From Thiothrix unzii (lineage in GTDB: Bacteria; Pseudomonadota; Gammaproteobacteria; Thiotrichales; Thiotrichaceae), in contig NZ_CP072793.1 of the NCBI RefSeq assembly GCF_017901175.1, positions 3,100,001-3,164,000 on the forward strand: a stretch of 64,000 nucleotides of DNA, given 5' to 3'. The number at the start of each line of letters is the position of its first letter. Within the stretch, counting starts at the first letter, position 1. Both the position numbers and the translations under genes were made by a program. The notes under the pieces were generated by a model. That model searched no databases. It saw only the letters and a list, made by a program, of their open reading frames with translations, and was not told where the DNA came from. Shown piece after piece: positions 27,877-41,858 of the stretch.

Positions 27877-27947
27877 GATGCTCCTTTACGTGTTTATACG
27901 TTACTCAGCGATTGTTGGATGCACGCCAACAGCAGGAAACCCAGAAA

Positions 27948-27983
27948 CAAAAAAGGGCTACATCCGTTTGAATGTAACCCTTT
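27948..27983 (-). terminator. Rho-independent terminator of the original tRNA-Lys gene (left copy)
   Basis: In the minus direction a 12-base stem AAAGGGTTACAT / ATGTAGCCCTTT (one G-U pair) is followed by a T-run. A near-identical copy exists at 41765-41802, so the duplicated junction extends past the tRNA into its terminator. Confidence 0.75.
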
Positions 27984-27990
27984 CATTTGT

Positions 27991-28037
27991 ATGGTGGGAC
28001 ATGTGCGACTCGAACGCACGACCACCTAATTAAAAGT
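27991..28037. repeat. Left attachment site (47-bp direct repeat, 3' part of tRNA-Lys)
   Basis: Identical to 41812-41858. It covers the tRNA 3' end (CCA, acceptor 3' strand, T arm, variable loop, part of the anticodon arm) but stops before the 5' half, so this copy is not a functional tRNA. Similarity continues leftwards through the terminator with a few differences. Confidence 0.9.
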
Positions 28038-28080: not shown

Positions 28081-28154
28081 CCCTTTGCCCTGCTTAGTGT
28101 CTGGCCTGTCCTTGTCGCATACTGTTCTAGTCTGTAGCATGGTTTATCATGCAA

Positions 28155-28178
28155 AAAGGACACCTGAAAGGACACCTG
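28155..28178 (+). repeat. Tandem 12-bp repeat (two AAAGGACACCTG), left copy
   Basis: Two exact units end at the integrase ATG, so the second GGA also acts as its ribosome site. The same pair of units, also followed by ATG, is found at 41729-41752 next to the right junction and nowhere else noticed. This is the layout of integrase arm-type sites. Confidence 0.65.
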
Positions 28179-29426
28179 ATGAACACCTACACCAACCACA
28201 AAGGCATTAAATCCGCGCTAAGCATACCACCCTTGCATTCGCACGTAGAAGTTAAGGATTCAACGTGCCAAGGGCTTTACTTACGCATCCAACCCACGGG
28301 AAACGCTACATTCATACACCGCTACAAAATCAACGGCGTGAGGCGCGTTTATACCTTCGAGAATATTACCCTCTCAAAATCCAACACTGAACGGCAAATC
28401 AGCGAAGCTTTAGCCAATGCACGCGCAATATGTGCAACCCAACGGGCAGAAATGAAGGCGGGCACTGATCCTGCAATAGAACGTGACCTGAAAACGCACC
28501 ATATCGCCACCATGCCCACGGTTTCAGAGTTTGCCGACACCTTCATAAGTCGTCACATGAAGGGTAAGAAAAGCGGCACGGAATACAAACGTATCCTGAA
28601 TGTGGATGTGTTGCCGATAGTGGGGAATATGCCGCTCGACAAGGTGGAGCGTAAACACATCATTGGTTTACTTGACCGCAAACAGGACGCGGGGGTAATG
28701 GTTGCCCGAAACATGGTAATAGCCGTGCTTTCCAAGATGTTTAACTTTGCCATAGAGCGGGCATTACTCGAATATAACCCCGTGACCGGCATCAAGAAGA
28801 CCAAGACCAAAGACAGGGAACGGGTTCTTAGTGAACGTGAAATCAGATTGCTATGGGAATACACCAACTCGACCACCAGTCGGCTTGACCCGTCTACGCG
28901 CCTTGCATTGCGTCTTATCCTTGTCACTGGGCAACGACCGGGCGAAATATGCCAAATGAAGGAAAAGCAGATAACCGGCAATATCTGGCACATACCCGAC
29001 ACCAAGACCGACAAATCACACGATGTATTCCTCACCCCAATGGCGTTACAGATCATCGAAGAAGCGCGGATGTTTGGGCGCAAAGGTTATCTGTTCATTG
29101 ATAGCAGCGGCAAAATGAAGGACAACAAGACCCTAGCGCAAAGTATCGGGAAATGGTCAGTTCAATGGGATGACAACCCAGAGGGCAGGCCAACCCCGCA
29201 CGACCTACGGCGGACGTTCACCACCGGGTTAGGCGCGTTGGGGTTCAGCCGATTCATTCAAAACCTTGTTACCAATCACGCAGACAGCAGCATAGGCGGC
29301 ATTTATGACCGCCATTCTTACGCTAAGGAACGCCAACAAGCACAAGAGGCATGGGAACGGCGGTTAACTGAGATCGTGACCGGCGAACTATTGGGAAATG
29401 TAGTGGAGTTCAGGCGGGCAGAATAG
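28179..29426 (+). CDS. int: Tyrosine recombinase integrase (P4-like)
   Basis: About 415 residues. N-terminal DUF4102-like arm-binding part (GLYLRIQPTGNATFIHRY), a SAM-like core-binding domain (TVSEFADTFISRHMKGKK, DVLPIVGNMPLDKVERKHI) and a catalytic domain with LILVTGQRPGEICQMK (first Arg), TPHDLRRTFTT (His and second Arg) and the nucleophile Tyr in GGIYDRHSY. The ATG at 28179 follows GGACACCTG; an ATG 10 codons upstream lies within the tandem repeats and is less likely. It should carry out integration and excision at the tRNA-Lys site. Confidence 0.93.
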   Translation: MNTYTNHKGIKSALSIPPLHSHVEVKDSTCQGLYLRIQPTGNATFIHRYKINGVRRVYTFENITLSKSNTERQISEALANARAICATQRAEMKAGTDPAIERDLKTHHIATMPTVSEFADTFISRHMKGKKSGTEYKRILNVDVLPIVGNMPLDKVERKHIIGLLDRKQDAGVMVARNMVIAVLSKMFNFAIERALLEYNPVTGIKKTKTKDRERVLSEREIRLLWEYTNSTTSRLDPSTRLALRLILVTGQRPGEICQMKEKQITGNIWHIPDTKTDKSHDVFLTPMALQIIEEARMFGRKGYLFIDSSGKMKDNKTLAQSIGKWSVQWDDNPEGRPTPHDLRRTFTTGLGALGFSRFIQNLVTNHADSSIGGIYDRHSYAKERQQAQEAWERRLTEIVTGELLGNVVEFRRAE

Positions 29427-29838: not shown

Positions 29839-30156
29839 ATGGAAATAACCAAGTACCAAACCCCACAAGGGAACATACCGCTGGATGATTGGCTTTCAAG
29901 TGTTCGTGACAGTCGGGCGCGGGCGCGTATTCAAATACGCATCGACCGCTTGACGTTGGGATTGTTTGGAGACTGGAAGCCCGTGGGTGATGGTGTGTGT
30001 GAATTGCGTGTTGATGTTGGCGCAGGCTATCGCATCTACTACGGACGGAACGGGCAGGAGCTTGTTATTCTCCTTTGTGGTGGTGACAAGGGCAGCCAGC
30101 AAGCCGACATCAAACAAGCCATTAAATATTGGAAGGATTACAAGGTGGAAAAATGA
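29839..30156 (+). CDS. HigB/RelE-family toxin
   Basis: A 105-residue RelE/ParE-superfamily toxin of the phage-type killer subfamily: MEITKYQTPQGNIPLDDWL, ARARIQIRIDRLTLGLFGDW, VCELRVDVGAGYRIYYGR, LLCGGDKGSQQADIKQA. Such toxins usually cut mRNA at the ribosome. It precedes its antitoxin, the higBA order, with a 4-base overlap. It probably stabilises the element in the host; defence against competing phages is an alternative. Confidence 0.88.
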   Translation: MEITKYQTPQGNIPLDDWLSSVRDSRARARIQIRIDRLTLGLFGDWKPVGDGVCELRVDVGAGYRIYYGRNGQELVILLCGGDKGSQQADIKQAIKYWKDYKVEK

Positions 30157-30458
30157 CAACAGTTCCTTACAGTAGCAGTGACTACCTGAAAACCGATGAA
30201 GACATTATCGAATACCTGAATGCAGCCGTTGAAGATGGAGACAATAGCGTCCTGCTGCTGGCAATGCGTAATGTCGCGATGGCTAAAGGCGGTATAGCGA
30301 AACTCGCAGATATTACAGGGCTGAACCGTGAAAGCTTATATAAAACGCTATCAGAACAGGGCAACCCGCATTACGACACACTATCTCTGATAATGCGCGG
30401 CCTTGGATTCCGCTTTACTGTCACGCCAAATTCTGAGCGCAGCAGCTTAACCGCTTAG
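30153..30458 (+). CDS. HigA-type antitoxin, helix-turn-helix
   Basis: A 101-residue antidote: HTH region GGIAKLADITGLNRESLYKTLSEQG and ending in NPHYDTLSLIMRGLGFRFTV, typical of the addiction-module antidote family paired with the toxin before it. The ATG at 30153 overlaps the toxin stop (ATGA). It should neutralise the toxin and repress the operon promoter, which lies beside the left iteron cluster. Confidence 0.88.
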   Translation: MTTVPYSSSDYLKTDEDIIEYLNAAVEDGDNSVLLLAMRNVAMAKGGIAKLADITGLNRESLYKTLSEQGNPHYDTLSLIMRGLGFRFTVTPNSERSSLTA

Positions 30459-30482
30459 GCGCGAAAATGAACGACAAAAAGA

Positions 30483-30505
30483 GCCGCACACGTTGCGGCT
30501 TTTTT
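30483..30505 (+). terminator. Terminator after the toxin-antitoxin operon
   Basis: Stem GCCGCA / TGCGGC, 5-base loop, six T. It separates the toxin-antitoxin genes from the capsid operon. Confidence 0.8.
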
Positions 30506-30669
30506 GTGCCTCACAACCTGAACGCCAGATAAACGCCTTTTTGCTTGATCTGTGGATAAGTCATGTAAAAAACATTCCAGTTTTTTAACGAATTTGAACA
30601 TCTGAACGCACCATCACACCCGCCAAACCTTATACACCGCGCCACTTGCAGCGATTCCAGATCATAAAA

Positions 30670-30765
30670 AATGCCTCGTAATTTTAGGGCGGTTATTTTT
30701 TGCAGCCCCACCGCCCTTGGACGCAACTTCTAAGGCATTCATCCAGCCGCGCCTCTAGCTGGATG
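30670..30765. other. Structured non-coding region before the capsid genes
   Basis: In the 372-base gap 30459-30830, two nested stems are visible: AATGCCT (30670-30676) with AGGCATT (30733-30739) enclosing AGGGCGG (30686-30692) with CCGCCCT (30711-30717); then CATCCAGC (30740-30747) with GCTGGATG (30758-30765). No open frame is convincing here. It could be a leader RNA or a packaging (cos-like) signal for the neighbouring GpM-type terminase; nothing more can be read. Confidence 0.45.
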
Positions 30766-30830
30766 CCCTACGGTGTCCTATCGGTACAAAAAAGCTAATG
30801 ATGAACCTTTACAAAAGAGGACGAATCGTC

Positions 30831-31577
30831 ATGTTTGAAACAGATTGGATTATTGCCGCCGTTGAAGGCGAAACCGCAGACGGGCGGGGTATCAGCAAAG
30901 AACAAGTGCAGCAAATGGCGGACAGCTACAACCCGCAAGTTTACGCTGCAAAAATCTGGCTGGAACATTTGCGCGGAACACTACCTGATAGTGTTTTCAA
31001 AGCATTGGGAACTGTTAGCGGGGTGAAGGCTGACACGATCAAGAGCGGCGAATTAAAAGGAAAGCTGGCTTTATTCGTGAAACTCACCCCGTCACCCGAA
31101 CTCATTGCAATGGTACGCAATGGGCAAAAGACCCACCTTTCTATCGAAATGCACCCGGAATTCCCGACCACTGGCGGCGCGTATCTTATGGGCTTAGGTG
31201 TAACGGATTCTCCCGCCTCGATCGGTACTGGAATTATGAAATTCAGCACCACCAACCGCCCTGAAAATGTGTTTTCCGCGCCGTTGGTGTGTGAGTTTGG
31301 AAACTGCGAAAACCAACAAGATGACTTAACCGCCATCCGCTCTATGCTGGAAAAGCTCACTGCCAACCCCGACCCGTGGAAAGGTAAGACCGAACCCGAC
31401 CCAACCAACCCGCCGCACCAATTCGCAGCACATTCTGATCTGGACAAGCTCAGAAACGACTTTGCAGAACTCACCGCCAAATTCCAAAAATTTGAGGACT
31501 TCATGGCAGAAGACGTAACACCAGTCCGCCGCGAATTGGGCGGTCGTTCACTCGAAAACAACCGTATCGGCTACTAA
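30831..31577 (+). CDS. P2 GpO-like capsid scaffold and protease
   Basis: A 248-residue protein of the GpO family, which scaffolds P2-type procapsids and then cleaves capsid proteins. The catalytic triad is conserved: Asp17 (TADGRG), His46 (LEHLRG) and Ser104 (HLSIEM). Surrounding motifs LPDSVFKALG, LKGKLALFVK and YLMGLGVTDSPASIGT fit the family. The C-terminal third has a coiled coil (LDKLRNDFAELTAKFQKF) as in scaffold tails. The ATG at 30831 follows AGAGGA; an earlier ATG is rejected. Slightly shorter than P2 GpO (about 284). First of a three-gene capsid block, yet no portal or large terminase gene precedes it. Confidence 0.9.
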   Translation: MFETDWIIAAVEGETADGRGISKEQVQQMADSYNPQVYAAKIWLEHLRGTLPDSVFKALGTVSGVKADTIKSGELKGKLALFVKLTPSPELIAMVRNGQKTHLSIEMHPEFPTTGGAYLMGLGVTDSPASIGTGIMKFSTTNRPENVFSAPLVCEFGNCENQQDDLTAIRSMLEKLTANPDPWKGKTEPDPTNPPHQFAAHSDLDKLRNDFAELTAKFQKFEDFMAEDVTPVRRELGGRSLENNRIGY

Positions 31578-31598: not shown

Positions 31599-32642
31599 AT
31601 GAAAAAACAAACCCGCGAAAAATTCAATCAACTGAAATTAGATGCAGCACAGACCAATGGTGTCATGGACGTAACCGAAAAGTTCACTGTCACCCCAGCC
31701 GTTGAACAACGCCTTGTTGATCAAATGGGCGAAAGTTCTGATTTTCTGAAAAGCATCAATATCATCGGTGTCACGGAGCAAAAAGGCCAAAAGCTCGGTT
31801 TAGGGGTAGGCTCACCAATTGGCAGCCGCACCAACACCGACACCAAAGAGCGCGAAACCGCCTACGTTGGCTCGTTAGTTCCCGACCCTTACGAAGCCAT
31901 GCAAACCAATTTCGACACTCACCTCAGTTACCGCATGATGGACGCATGGGCAGCGTTTGCGGACTTTAACAAGCGTTATCGTAAGCACGTCATGAAGCGC
32001 ATGGCATTAGACCGCATCTTAATTGGCTGGAACGGCACAAGTGCAGCCGCTGAAACCGACCGCGCGACAAGTCCGCTGCTGCAAGACGTGAACATTGGAT
32101 GGTTAGAAAAAGTCCGCCGCAATGCCCCAGCACGCATGATGGGTTACGACTCAACCGGGCAAGAAACCACCGACACCTACAACGTTGGTGAAGGTGGACA
32201 ATACCCAACGCTGGACGCGCTCGTGTTTGACATGATGAGCAACTTACTCGACCCGTGGAATACGGGAAGTGATGACCTCGTATTAATTTTGGGGCGTGAA
32301 CTGTGGGTAAAACACGGTTTAGAACTTTACGCAGAAAACCGACCTGCTACCGAACGCAACGCCCTACAAGTCTGGTTTGCACGCCAAGCCGTTGCAGGAT
32401 TGCCAACCATCACCGTCCCGTTTTTCCCTGAGCGCGGTGCGGTCGTCACCAGTTACGACAATTTGAGTATTTACTTTCAATCAGGTGCAGTCCGCCGCGC
32501 CATCATCGACAACCCCAAGCGCGACCGTGTGGAAGAATACCTATCCAGTAACGACGCTTATGTGGTGGAAGATTATGGCAAGTTTGGCGGCATCCGTGCC
32601 GGTGCGGTCAAGCTCAAAAACGCCGCTGGTAATTGGGTGTAA
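31599..32642 (+). CDS. P2 GpN-like major capsid protein
   Basis: A 347-residue capsid protein of the GpN family (HK97-type fold). Typical motifs: VTPAVEQRLVDQMGESSDFL, GVGSPIGSRT, PLLQDVNIGWLEKVR, NAPARMMGYDS, YPTLDALVFDMMSNL, VLILGRELW and the ending VVEDYGKFGGI. The length matches P2 GpN, so the protein appears intact. AGGAACA lies before the ATG. GpN is processed by GpO in P2 and forms the icosahedral shell; the same is expected here. Finding this gene in an element without tail or portal genes is the unusual part. Confidence 0.92.
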   Translation: MKKQTREKFNQLKLDAAQTNGVMDVTEKFTVTPAVEQRLVDQMGESSDFLKSINIIGVTEQKGQKLGLGVGSPIGSRTNTDTKERETAYVGSLVPDPYEAMQTNFDTHLSYRMMDAWAAFADFNKRYRKHVMKRMALDRILIGWNGTSAAAETDRATSPLLQDVNIGWLEKVRRNAPARMMGYDSTGQETTDTYNVGEGGQYPTLDALVFDMMSNLLDPWNTGSDDLVLILGRELWVKHGLELYAENRPATERNALQVWFARQAVAGLPTITVPFFPERGAVVTSYDNLSIYFQSGAVRRAIIDNPKRDRVEEYLSSNDAYVVEDYGKFGGIRAGAVKLKNAAGNWV

Positions 32643-32644
32643 CC

Positions 32645-33352
32645 ATGTTGTCACCCGCCGCGCAACACCGCCAACAACATGACGTGCAACTGCAAGTGCA
32701 GCGTGAGCAAGCCACTCACGATGCGCCCATTGTTGCAGCTGTTAGTGCGGAACACGCGGCGGGTAATGACTACCGCCTAATGCATATCCGGCTAGACGAC
32801 GATGTAAGGCGGCTTGCCAGCATCCGCAGCCGTGACCGTGCCAACCAGATGAAACACAGCATCCTCCCGCATTACTGGGGTTACTGTAGTGCGGTAATCA
32901 GCCGCAACACCACCAAGCCCGACAGTATTATCACGCGGGTTTGTATCTGGTGTTTCGACATTGGGGAAATCAGCAACGGGTTGTTGTTGGCTGAATTTGC
33001 ATTAGGGCGTTATCTCCCCAAACCGGACGGCTACCGCCACACCCCAAGCCCCGCAGGATTCAAGCGCAACCTCGCTGAAACCTTGGCGGAAACGCTCGCC
33101 GATACGGTGTTAAAAAGCCAAACCCCACACAACGCAGCCAACCACTTATTGCACTTGATGGAATTAGTGAAGCAACACGACATCACCGACCACATCAACG
33201 CCAAACTTCACCGCGCCTATGCAATGGCAGTTGCCAGCACTGACAGCGACACCGCTATTCAACACTACACCGAATCCAACCGATTAAGACCGCTTGCCAG
33301 TATCCGCAAGGCGATAGAACGACTTGAAAAGCAAAGAGGACAACAACGATGA
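32645..33352 (+). CDS. P2 GpM-like terminase small subunit
   Basis: A 235-residue protein matching GpM: MLSPAAQHRQQ at the start, WGYCSAVISR, VCIWCFDIGEISNGLLLAEFAL and, at the end, a region like AIQHYTESNRLRPLASIRKAIERL. GpM recognises cos DNA and recruits the large terminase GpP. The ATG at 32645 is 2 bases after the capsid stop. With no large terminase in the element, this protein would have to direct a helper phage's motor to the element's DNA. Confidence 0.85.
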   Translation: MLSPAAQHRQQHDVQLQVQREQATHDAPIVAAVSAEHAAGNDYRLMHIRLDDDVRRLASIRSRDRANQMKHSILPHYWGYCSAVISRNTTKPDSIITRVCIWCFDIGEISNGLLLAEFALGRYLPKPDGYRHTPSPAGFKRNLAETLAETLADTVLKSQTPHNAANHLLHLMELVKQHDITDHINAKLHRAYAMAVASTDSDTAIQHYTESNRLRPLASIRKAIERLEKQRGQQR

Positions 33353-33597
33353 ATGCAGATAATGCAGTATCAGGAAAAGTGAACTACAGCGAGACCGCCG
33401 CCGCACGGTATTTAGGGGTATCTAAACGCACCATTAGGGATTTACCCATACCACGGCTTGAAATTTTGCGCGACGACACCCCGAACAAAGATGGATACGT
33501 CAGAAAACGCCGTTTTATTCGTTACGAAAAAGCCAATCTTGACAAGTTCAAAGAAGATCACGTCACCACTCCCGTTGGTTGGTGCGTATCAAGTTAA
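33349..33597 (+). CDS. Small helix-turn-helix protein (excisionase-like)
   Basis: An 82-residue protein with a MerR/HTH_17-like fold: YSETAAARYLGVSKRTIRDLPI, then RRFIRYEKANLDKFKEDH. This is the shape of excisionases and small phage regulators. Its ATG overlaps the GpM stop by 4 bases, so it is the fourth gene of the capsid operon. It may regulate excision or the capsid genes. Confidence 0.75.
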   Translation: MNADNAVSGKVNYSETAAARYLGVSKRTIRDLPIPRLEILRDDTPNKDGYVRKRRFIRYEKANLDKFKEDHVTTPVGWCVSS

Positions 33598-33615
33598 ATC
33601 AGTAACTGAGTTTTA

Positions 33616-33717
33616 GGGTGTCCCACACTGAATACTAAACAGCCGTTTTACTTGCGATCTGTGATTACCGCCAACACGTAGCATAAAGCCGCTTTAAAAC
33701 AGTGTGTTAGGACACCC
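33616..33717. repeat. Long-range inverted repeat after the capsid operon
   Basis: GGGTGTCC-CACACTG (33616-33630) is complementary to CAGTGTG-TTA-GGACACCC (33700-33717), 15 pairs with a 3-base bulge and a 69-base loop. No T-run follows, so it is not a simple terminator. It could be a small RNA, a protein-binding site, or a packaging signal. Confidence 0.6.
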
Positions 33718-33759
33718 GCCTTATATTTTTCAGATAGATTAATTAAATCAGACAACCCC

Positions 33760-41441: not shown

Positions 41442-41720
41442 TGGAAACTGCAAAACTTGCTATTCGTGCAAAAAATAATCTAAAAATAGCAGGAATAGCA
41501 ACTGTAGCAACAGGAATAGCAAAATCTGCTATTCATCAAACCATTGATTATAAAGGCCAATCATCTAGGAATAGCAAGAATAGCAGGAATAGCAATAGCA
41601 ACGTGCCAAAACTGAAAAAACAGGGTATCGCTAGGTTAGAAACGGCGGCGGGATTGCCTATTACTCTTCTGGCGTTACGTCACGCCAAAGCATTAGAAAA
41701 TGGGGTGTTTGAGGGAGTCA
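41442..41720 (+). pseudogene. Partial duplicate of the iteron gene; iteron cluster C
   Basis: From 41442 the sequence repeats about 250 bases of the 40822 gene (METAKLAIRAKNNLKIAGIA, then RNSKNSRNSNSN and KKQGIARLETAAGLPIT), with point differences, then loses similarity near 41675. The Cys-containing half is missing. The frame runs on through the att site, so it is unlikely to make a useful protein, but it keeps a third iteron cluster (41453-41615). Confidence 0.65.
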
Positions 41721-41752: not shown

Positions 41753-41764
41753 ATGGGGATTACA

Positions 41765-41802
41765 AAGAAAAAAGGGCTACATCCGTTTGAATGTAACCCT
41801 TT
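41765..41802 (-). terminator. Terminator of the reconstituted tRNA-Lys gene (right copy)
   Basis: Same 12-base stem as at 27948-27983, read in the minus direction with a T-run. The element therefore supplies both the tRNA 3' half and its terminator. Confidence 0.75.
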
Positions 41803-41811
41803 GATTCGTAT

Positions 41812-41858
41812 ATGGTGGGACATGTGCGACTCGAACGCACGACCACCTAATTAAAAGT
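41812..41858. repeat. Right attachment site (47-bp direct repeat)
   Basis: Identical to 27991-28037. It forms the 3' half of the intact tRNA-Lys gene. Recombination between the two copies would excise 13,821 bp and leave one complete tRNA gene. Confidence 0.9.

Follow-up and report, generated by a model that had tools for sequence, protein, structure and literature searches.

To our knowledge, known satellites either remodel the capsids of their helpers (P4 and SaPIs) or encode a complete set of head and packaging proteins (cf-PICI). In the P2 record (AF063097), cos occupies nt 1-19 at the left end, past Q, and is followed by tQ, Q, P, and then O-N-M. A cos site of the P2 type is expected to be cut in a staggered manner, with cohesive ends of 19 nt. 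In the available portions of PMC8628076 and PMC9122126, P4 is described as containing int, a defence hotspot, cos, and capsid-modifying genes in that order and as needing a P2-type helper, and a core cos next to the defence hotspots is common to P2 and P4. According to the available text of PMC10690885, cf-PICIs carry the portal, connectors, both terminase subunits, and HNH. EcCICFT073, a Gram-negative PICI, has a cosN like that of its helper beside a different cosB region in the available sections of PMC6092414.

The window, namely the whole stretch of Thiothrix unzii DNA analysed here (64,000 nucleotides), contains an element of ~13.9 kb at tRNA-Lys, which is bounded by two attachment repeats, one starting at 27945 and the other in the tRNA-Lys and ending at 41858. 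Judged from sequence comparison, 30505-30765 is probably (at about 0.72) the cos-type packaging region of a P2-type satellite that encodes its capsid but has neither portal nor large terminase. The features of the element were as follows (window coordinates):

27945-28037: left attachment repeat, duplicating part of tRNA-Lys (direct repeat of 95 bases with 94.7% identity to 41764-41858)
28149-29426, + strand: tyrosine integrase (Pfam PF00589, 6.4e-17)
29839-30458, + strand: toxin-antitoxin-like cargo pair, between int and the gap
29839-30156, + strand: Gp49-like toxin (Pfam PF05973, 2e-5)
30153-30458, + strand: HI1420-type antidote (Pfam PF21716, 8.5e-25)
30482-30505, + strand: hairpin and T-run ending the cargo operon, a pattern common to the family
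30515-30528, + strand: exact 14-mer AACCTGAACGCCAG, left marker of the putative packaging region
30551-30588, + strand: conserved block TGTGGATAA...TAAAAAAC/GTTTTTTA, consisting of a nonamer (at 30551) that we take to be DnaA-box-like and an AT-rich dyad
30662-30699, + strand: conserved left half of the core, TCATAAAAAATGCCTCGTAATTTTA...TTATTTT
30670-30676 and 30733-30739: outer stem, AATGCCT/AGGCATT, 7 bp
30686-30693 and 30710-30717: inner stem, AGGGCGGT/ACCGCCCT, 8 bp
30700-30739, + strand: divergent island, holding the right arms of the inner and outer stems
30702-30724, + strand: candidate cut core GCAGCCCCACCGCCCTTGGACGC, within the divergent island
30740-30747 and 30758-30765, + strand: third hairpin, CATCCAGC/GCTGGATG, 8 bp with an N10 loop
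30831-31577, + strand: GpO capsid scaffold/protease (Pfam PF05929, 1.2e-57)
31599-32642, + strand: GpN, P2-type major capsid protein (Pfam PF05125, 5e-115)
32645-33352, + strand: GpM, small terminase (Pfam PF05944, 7.9e-22)
33349-33597, + strand: small HTH-like protein, last in the capsid operon (weak HTH_17 match, below cut-off)
41764-41858: right attachment repeat, overlapping tRNA-Lys(ttt)

The element further codes for an Arc/TraY-type regulator, AlpA, a Toprim primase, and a DUF3987 helicase. Neither a P2-type portal (Q) nor a large terminase (P) was detected anywhere in the element by tblastn with Q and P from P2 and from a prophage of the same bacterial family (L229; see below), and Pfam Phage_portal had no match in the window's own genome; for large terminases of non-P2 types, the profile search covered only the scanned ORFs of the window. 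PF06056 (a 58-position terminase domain), used as a helper finder, matched weakly 13 times, in 10 of the 57 genomes, and no helper phage for the element was found. Two other repeats were noted: an inverted repeat, GGGTGTCC..CACACTG / CAGTGTG..GGACACCC, at ~33615-33720, 3' of the HTH gene (by eye), and short repeated AAGAATAGCAGGAATAGCAA-like units at 41482-41595, close to the element's right end.

The outer and inner stems and the third hairpin had been described in the initial annotation as filling a gene-free gap of 372 bases before GpO. All three were present at their coordinates, and the stems are real and above chance: 30506-30830 (325 bp) contained 3 perfect stems that were 8 bp or longer and had loops of up to 20 (shuffled mean of 0.07, with 0 of 200 reaching 3), and 5 stems of at least 7 bp with loops of up to 60 (shuffled mean of 0.99, P 0.01). 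A further perfect 8-bp stem, absent from that annotation, was formed by TAAAAAAC/GTTTTTTA at 30566-30587. The gap was also as described, with 372 bases between the antitoxin stop (30458) and the GpO start (30831, chosen where conservation against the viral contig L196 sets in); the stems, on the other hand, take up 96 of these 372 bases and do not fill it. A 71-aa antisense ORF at 30511-30726 was rejected as a gene, since differences between the window and L196 by codon position were 12/8/3, the fewest being at the third (189 aligned bases). The gap sequence occurs once in the window's 3.72-Mb genome.

GpN matches were found in 11 other genomes among the 57 searched and in viral contigs; in the named phage collection, 353 records matched, all at <60% identity. 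We compared 18 satellite loci: the window (W), L014-L016, L094, L096-L098, L174-L180, L196, L230, and L231. Five of these (L094, L096-L098, and L196) are viral contigs of 7-12 kb and possibly incomplete, and L181 (G005), with partial GpO and GpN, was excluded. By tblastn, none of the 18 stretches contained a P2-type portal or large terminase, both of which were found in two phages, L229 and L232. In the GpN tree, the 18 satellites were on one side of a branch versus 32 phages (L229, L232, and 30 picked from 152 P2-like loci), with support of 100/99. The capsid genes are ordered O-N-M or N-M-O, and GpO was found in 16 of the 18 (missing from L179 and L231); in L178 (G010:C2), it is apparently split into parts separated by minus-strand ORFs (289 and 98 aa). 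L196, the only viral contig found with a GpM like that of the window, has GpN, GpO, and GpM 100, 95.7, and 91% identical to those of the window and an integrase only 24% identical, while L096 (integrase at L096:1-1245) shows 99% identity in integrase and 66% in GpN, and therefore modules have been exchanged. A literature search found no account of satellites in Thiothrix, nor of P2-type satellites that encode GpO-GpN-GpM themselves.

The cargo slot varies: YefM-YoeB in L196, the Gp49-like toxin in W and L098, and a RelE-like and HTH pair in L097. A ProQ/FinO-family gene was located directly after the integrase at L196:1273-1806, L094:1198-1779, L176:6329-6889, and L098:1572-2291 (Pfam, all four tested), ProQ/FinO-like proteins were recognized by eye in L015, L016, L097, L175, L177, and L180, and in the window, the interval from int to the toxin gene had no ORF of at least 60 aa. 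Proteins of the FinO type bind to hairpins with U after them, and the conserved hairpin-plus-T terminator closes the same cargo stretch that holds the ProQ/FinO gene.

In many members, the order before the first capsid gene is cargo-ending terminator, repeats, GC-rich core, hairpin, and capsid gene. The terminator was detected within 450 bp in 11 of the 18 gaps, and L196 has one further upstream; that of the window was flagged by the motif scanner on the minus strand only and was read on the plus strand by eye. Among the 6 pairs of the terminator hairpin, 4 are invariant and 1 changes on both sides; both-sided changes were found in 4 of 72 cells (0 of 500 shuffles had as many), but when counted by pairs, 439 of 500 shuffles did as well. 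This hairpin is constant while the cargo differs, and may be a fixed border for cargo exchange. TGCAC/GTGCA repeats were present in 8 members at 3-8 copies per 450 bp, versus 0.7-1.3 expected from the rest of each locus. Other units were ACATGTAA in L094 and L174 (one copy in L097) and GTCACA in L179; L015, L178, and L231 had no nameable repeat, and no recurrent 6- or 7-mers or repeats above shuffles were found in the window gap. A GTCGTGAWGAC hairpin was seen, by pattern, ~40-46 bp before GpN in the N-first loci L098, L176-L179, and L230, a variant of it was seen by eye in L180, and the prophage L229 has such a hairpin ~40-55 bp before GpO.

Similarity to the window gap was highest in L196 (z 61.8) and L175 (11.0), and the scores of L014 (4.5) and L174 (3.4) were weak because one control piece reached 4.05. 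The 14-mer AACCTGAACGCCAG was exact in 5 of the 18 satellites (W, L014, L094, L174, and L196), 260-343 bp before GpO, and was absent from window shuffles; the similarity of L014 and L174 gains from its presence at the same place. The landmarks of the window gap also follow the same order. For the window itself, the packaging reading depends on synteny and this shared 14-mer. The block at 30551-30588 was identical to L196 in 38 of 38 bases (29/38 were the same in W, L196, and L175), and 30662-30699 in 33 of 38 (23/38 in the three). By bins, 30520-30699 matched L196 at 16-20/20 except for 30600-30619 (11/20), and GpO matched at 19-20/20 from 30840.

The conserved block could also be read as part of a replication origin, in which iteron-like repeats, the nonamer, and the AT-rich dyad serve the Toprim primase and DUF3987 helicase coded by the element; TGTGGATAA is kept in L196 and L175, and iteron-style repeats are present in many satellite gaps. 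However, the exact nonamer was not found in the other 15 satellite gaps (450 bp each), the replication genes begin ~7 kb from the gap, and the repeat-and-core arrangement is also located past the portal gene of the P2-type prophage L229, in the position of cos. It is, therefore, distinctly unlikely that this stretch is mainly an origin.

The similarity to L196 breaks off at the island 30700-30739, in which only 8 of 40 bases were the same (17/40 in a gapped pairwise alignment); 30760-30799 was also divergent (12/20 and 10/20). Since the outer and inner stems need this island, they are private to the window in this set, and both were absent from L196 despite identical GpN. The block shared by L196 and L175 ends in GCGAGAGCGGGAGTGAAAGCGC and GCGTAAGCGGGTGTGAAAGCGC, which resemble GGCGAGGCGGGGAAAGCAC of P2 (4/300 and 15/300 shuffles, respectively, were as good), and that end is replaced in the window; in the whole L196 element, a better match to P2 cos was located elsewhere (11.0 vs 10.2). 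Allowing up to 3 mismatches, a search of 63 genomes for the window core gave a single match elsewhere, located in G005, and a backward control likewise hit once there, and its exact 18-mer was in no viral contig. The packaging region of the window may have decayed, its core having been lost by recombination and replaced by the inverted repeats: the divergent island is exactly where the P2-like core sits in L196 and L175, and the only match of the window core elsewhere has 3 mismatches. On the other hand, the O, N, M, int, AlpA, and replication ORFs are all open, and the capsid operon appears to be under selection because identity between W and L196 reaches 93.9% over 2.8 kb and their GpN proteins are the same. 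We regard decay as unlikely.

The third hairpin was present in W and L175 and twice in L196, with 19 of 26 bases the same in the three, and begins ~90-100 bp before GpO; the second copy in L196 directly follows its HTH gene, and L174 has a looser hairpin, TCCAGC-N(6-12)-GCTGGA, at the same place. In 57 genomes, it was found only in G000 and G009, with one 1-mismatch match in G043. Searches of viral contigs with GTCCCCCCGCCCYGACACG, AGCGGGWGTGAAAGCGC, GCCCCACCGCCCTTGGAC, and the third hairpin gave, beyond the known satellites, no match, matches inside ORFs, or contigs with no satellite or Q/P protein; the last applied to five other contigs matching the third hairpin. Its retention alone would not indicate a packaging role. 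It may instead be a DNA dyad for a regulator (a late activator of the helper or the HTH protein at the operon end) that switches on the capsid operon, the rest being spacer: besides its conserved position and the copy after the HTH gene of L196, hairpins precede the first capsid gene in other members, and an activator is plausible because no sigma-70-type promoter was found in 30440-30860. The motif of the P2-type activator is TGT-N12-ACA. In 16 of the 18 gaps, including that of the window, the final 250 bp did not contain this motif, and such a dyad leaves the repeats and the phage homology unexplained. A regulator dyad is a tentative possibility, compatible with an adjoining cos and not exclusive of it.

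The initial annotation had also suggested a leader RNA, in which case the stems would form a structured leader of the capsid operon. The 96-mer alone, folded as plus-strand RNA, had a z of -2.26 (better than 195 of 200 shuffles, with 5 as good), the third hairpin is conserved, and DNA folding gave -3.06 (0/200 as good). In the 141-nt context, however, z was -0.79 (35/200 as good) and the outer stem was missing from the predicted fold, while no Rfam match was obtained in the gap up to E 1. Covariation among relatives, proposed as a test, was not borne out, with the outer and inner stems missing in L196 and 1 of 9 pairs of the third hairpin changed on both sides; since 231 of 500 shuffles matched this value, the third hairpin is not callable as RNA on this evidence. 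A leader RNA is highly improbable.

We then return to the packaging reading and the P2-type cos site. The P2-like set comprised 152 loci, 131 with Q and 122 with usable Q flanks, some phages being included twice (genome and viral contig). In a forward-strand scan with a matrix of 42 P2-like phages, built from the same set as was scanned, 42 of the 122 Q flanks had a P2-type cos core scoring >24, and the other 80 scored <=3.4. A P2-type Q was detected in 1 of 115 genomes searched, namely in the prophage L229 (Q, P, O, N, and M). Past its Q are TGCAC repeats and the core GCGTGCCCCCCGCCCCGCACACG, and the core CCCCCCGCCCC in this flank was the best P2-cos match in its 18 kb on 2 of 3 matrix widths. 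Among the 18 satellite gaps, five are homologous to this flank: z was 9.4 for L098, 12.1 for L176, 14.1 for L177, 15.6 for L180, and 8.5 for L230 (0/100 shuffles each), versus <=2.4 for the remaining 13 and a maximum of 2.05 for 53 control pieces. Repeats, spacing, and core were all in register in the alignment. The flank of a second phage, L232, has GTCACAA repeats and was matched by L179 in the opposite orientation (z 4.7, 0/100 shuffles); the next best satellite was L097 (z 2.9), with controls of up to 2.93. These results suggested that the flank past Q in the prophage is a functional cos, lying beside the portal gene in the phage, and beside the cargo slot and capsid module in the satellite. 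The prophage and these five satellites can be paired by such a site.

The window's own gap, on the other hand, was not significantly similar to either flank (27/100 shuffles as good for L229 and 14/100 for L232) or to the 19-mer cos of P2 (47/300). The idea of a packaging signal, originally attached to the nested stems, is supported for the gap as a whole by its position in the family and by the homology of the five other gaps; the nested stems are not the conserved signal, as the outer and inner are absent from L196. The P2-type matrix favoured satellite gaps on 1 of 3 widths (Fisher 1e-4, 0.064, and 0.66), with ranks of 3, 13, and 57 for the window gap, rank 3 falling in the third hairpin. 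The best short match in this gap was the minus strand of the third hairpin (GAGGCGCGGCTGGA, 7.3, p 0.06), and the C-rich core scored 5.7. Because the hairpin outscored the core, either the third hairpin or the diverged C-rich core could still be the cut site. As read from the sequences, the core is G-rich on the plus strand in P2, L196, L175, L174, L094, L096, and L016, and C-rich in L229, W, L098, L176, L177, L180, and L230, an apparent switch of strand.

Repeat classes, assigned from repeat counts and by eye (3 of 20 rows without a class), clustered on the GpM tree with 5 changes versus a shuffled mean of 7.4 (as low in 3/200). It is plausible that the element's own GpM reads the site. However, the GpMs of the phages L229 and L232 are sisters (59% identical), yet their repeats differ, and the repeats of L229 recur in satellites with a GpM only 25-29% identical; by the two phages, repeat type would not follow GpM.

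Based on these comparisons, packaging may proceed as follows. Entry or induction of a P2-type helper phage would come first. The satellite would then produce GpO, GpN, and GpM as a scaffold, shell, and small terminase of its own, and a small terminase, either this one or that of the helper, would mark the left part of the gap. The large terminase (GpP) and portal (GpQ) of the helper would then cut at the GC-rich core, and the 13.9-kb element would be loaded into the satellite shell, to which helper tails would be added. As a speculation that we consider rather doubtful, the family, with its own P2-type shell and small terminase and a borrowed portal and motor, might change helpers by exchanging a short cassette with the cut site (here 30700-30739), even in inverted form, while its capsid operon and all other parts of the packaging region are kept. 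A clade with this gene content would make it directly testable which motor parts set helper choice.

The site differed in several respects from known systems. Like P2 cos, it adjoins head genes beside a variable cargo slot, and the core in L196 and L175 is like GGCGAGGCGGGGAAAGCAC; in contrast, P2 cos is past Q, whereas the satellite gap abuts GpO with Q and P absent, and the window core, C-rich on the plus strand, is not significantly similar. The order of int, cargo hotspot, cos, and capsid-related genes is the same as that outlined for P4 in the available sources, and the element has both integrase and AlpA, as expected of P4-like satellites. P4, however, constricts helper capsids with Psu and Sid (PMC8628076, available portion), whereas this element codes for its own shell, scaffold, and small terminase. 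Psu, delta, and Sid were not among the Pfam matches of the 18 scanned window ORFs (a search with Pfam profiles that took in part of the small ORFs, Sid having a custom profile of its own), and as far as tested by these three proteins, the family is not P4-like. It resembles cf-PICI in being a satellite with its own major capsid protein, but none of the 18 elements had a P2-type portal or large terminase (tblastn), and since cf-PICIs carry the portal, connectors, and both terminase subunits in the available text of PMC10690885, the family is not cf-PICI by that definition. EcCICFT073, in the available sections of PMC6092414, differs in having no small terminase homologue and in hijacking phage proteins for transfer, and is similar in that a helper-like cosN is next to a differing cosB region. 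With shell, scaffold, and small terminase but without portal and large terminase, this clade would be intermediate between the known satellite types.
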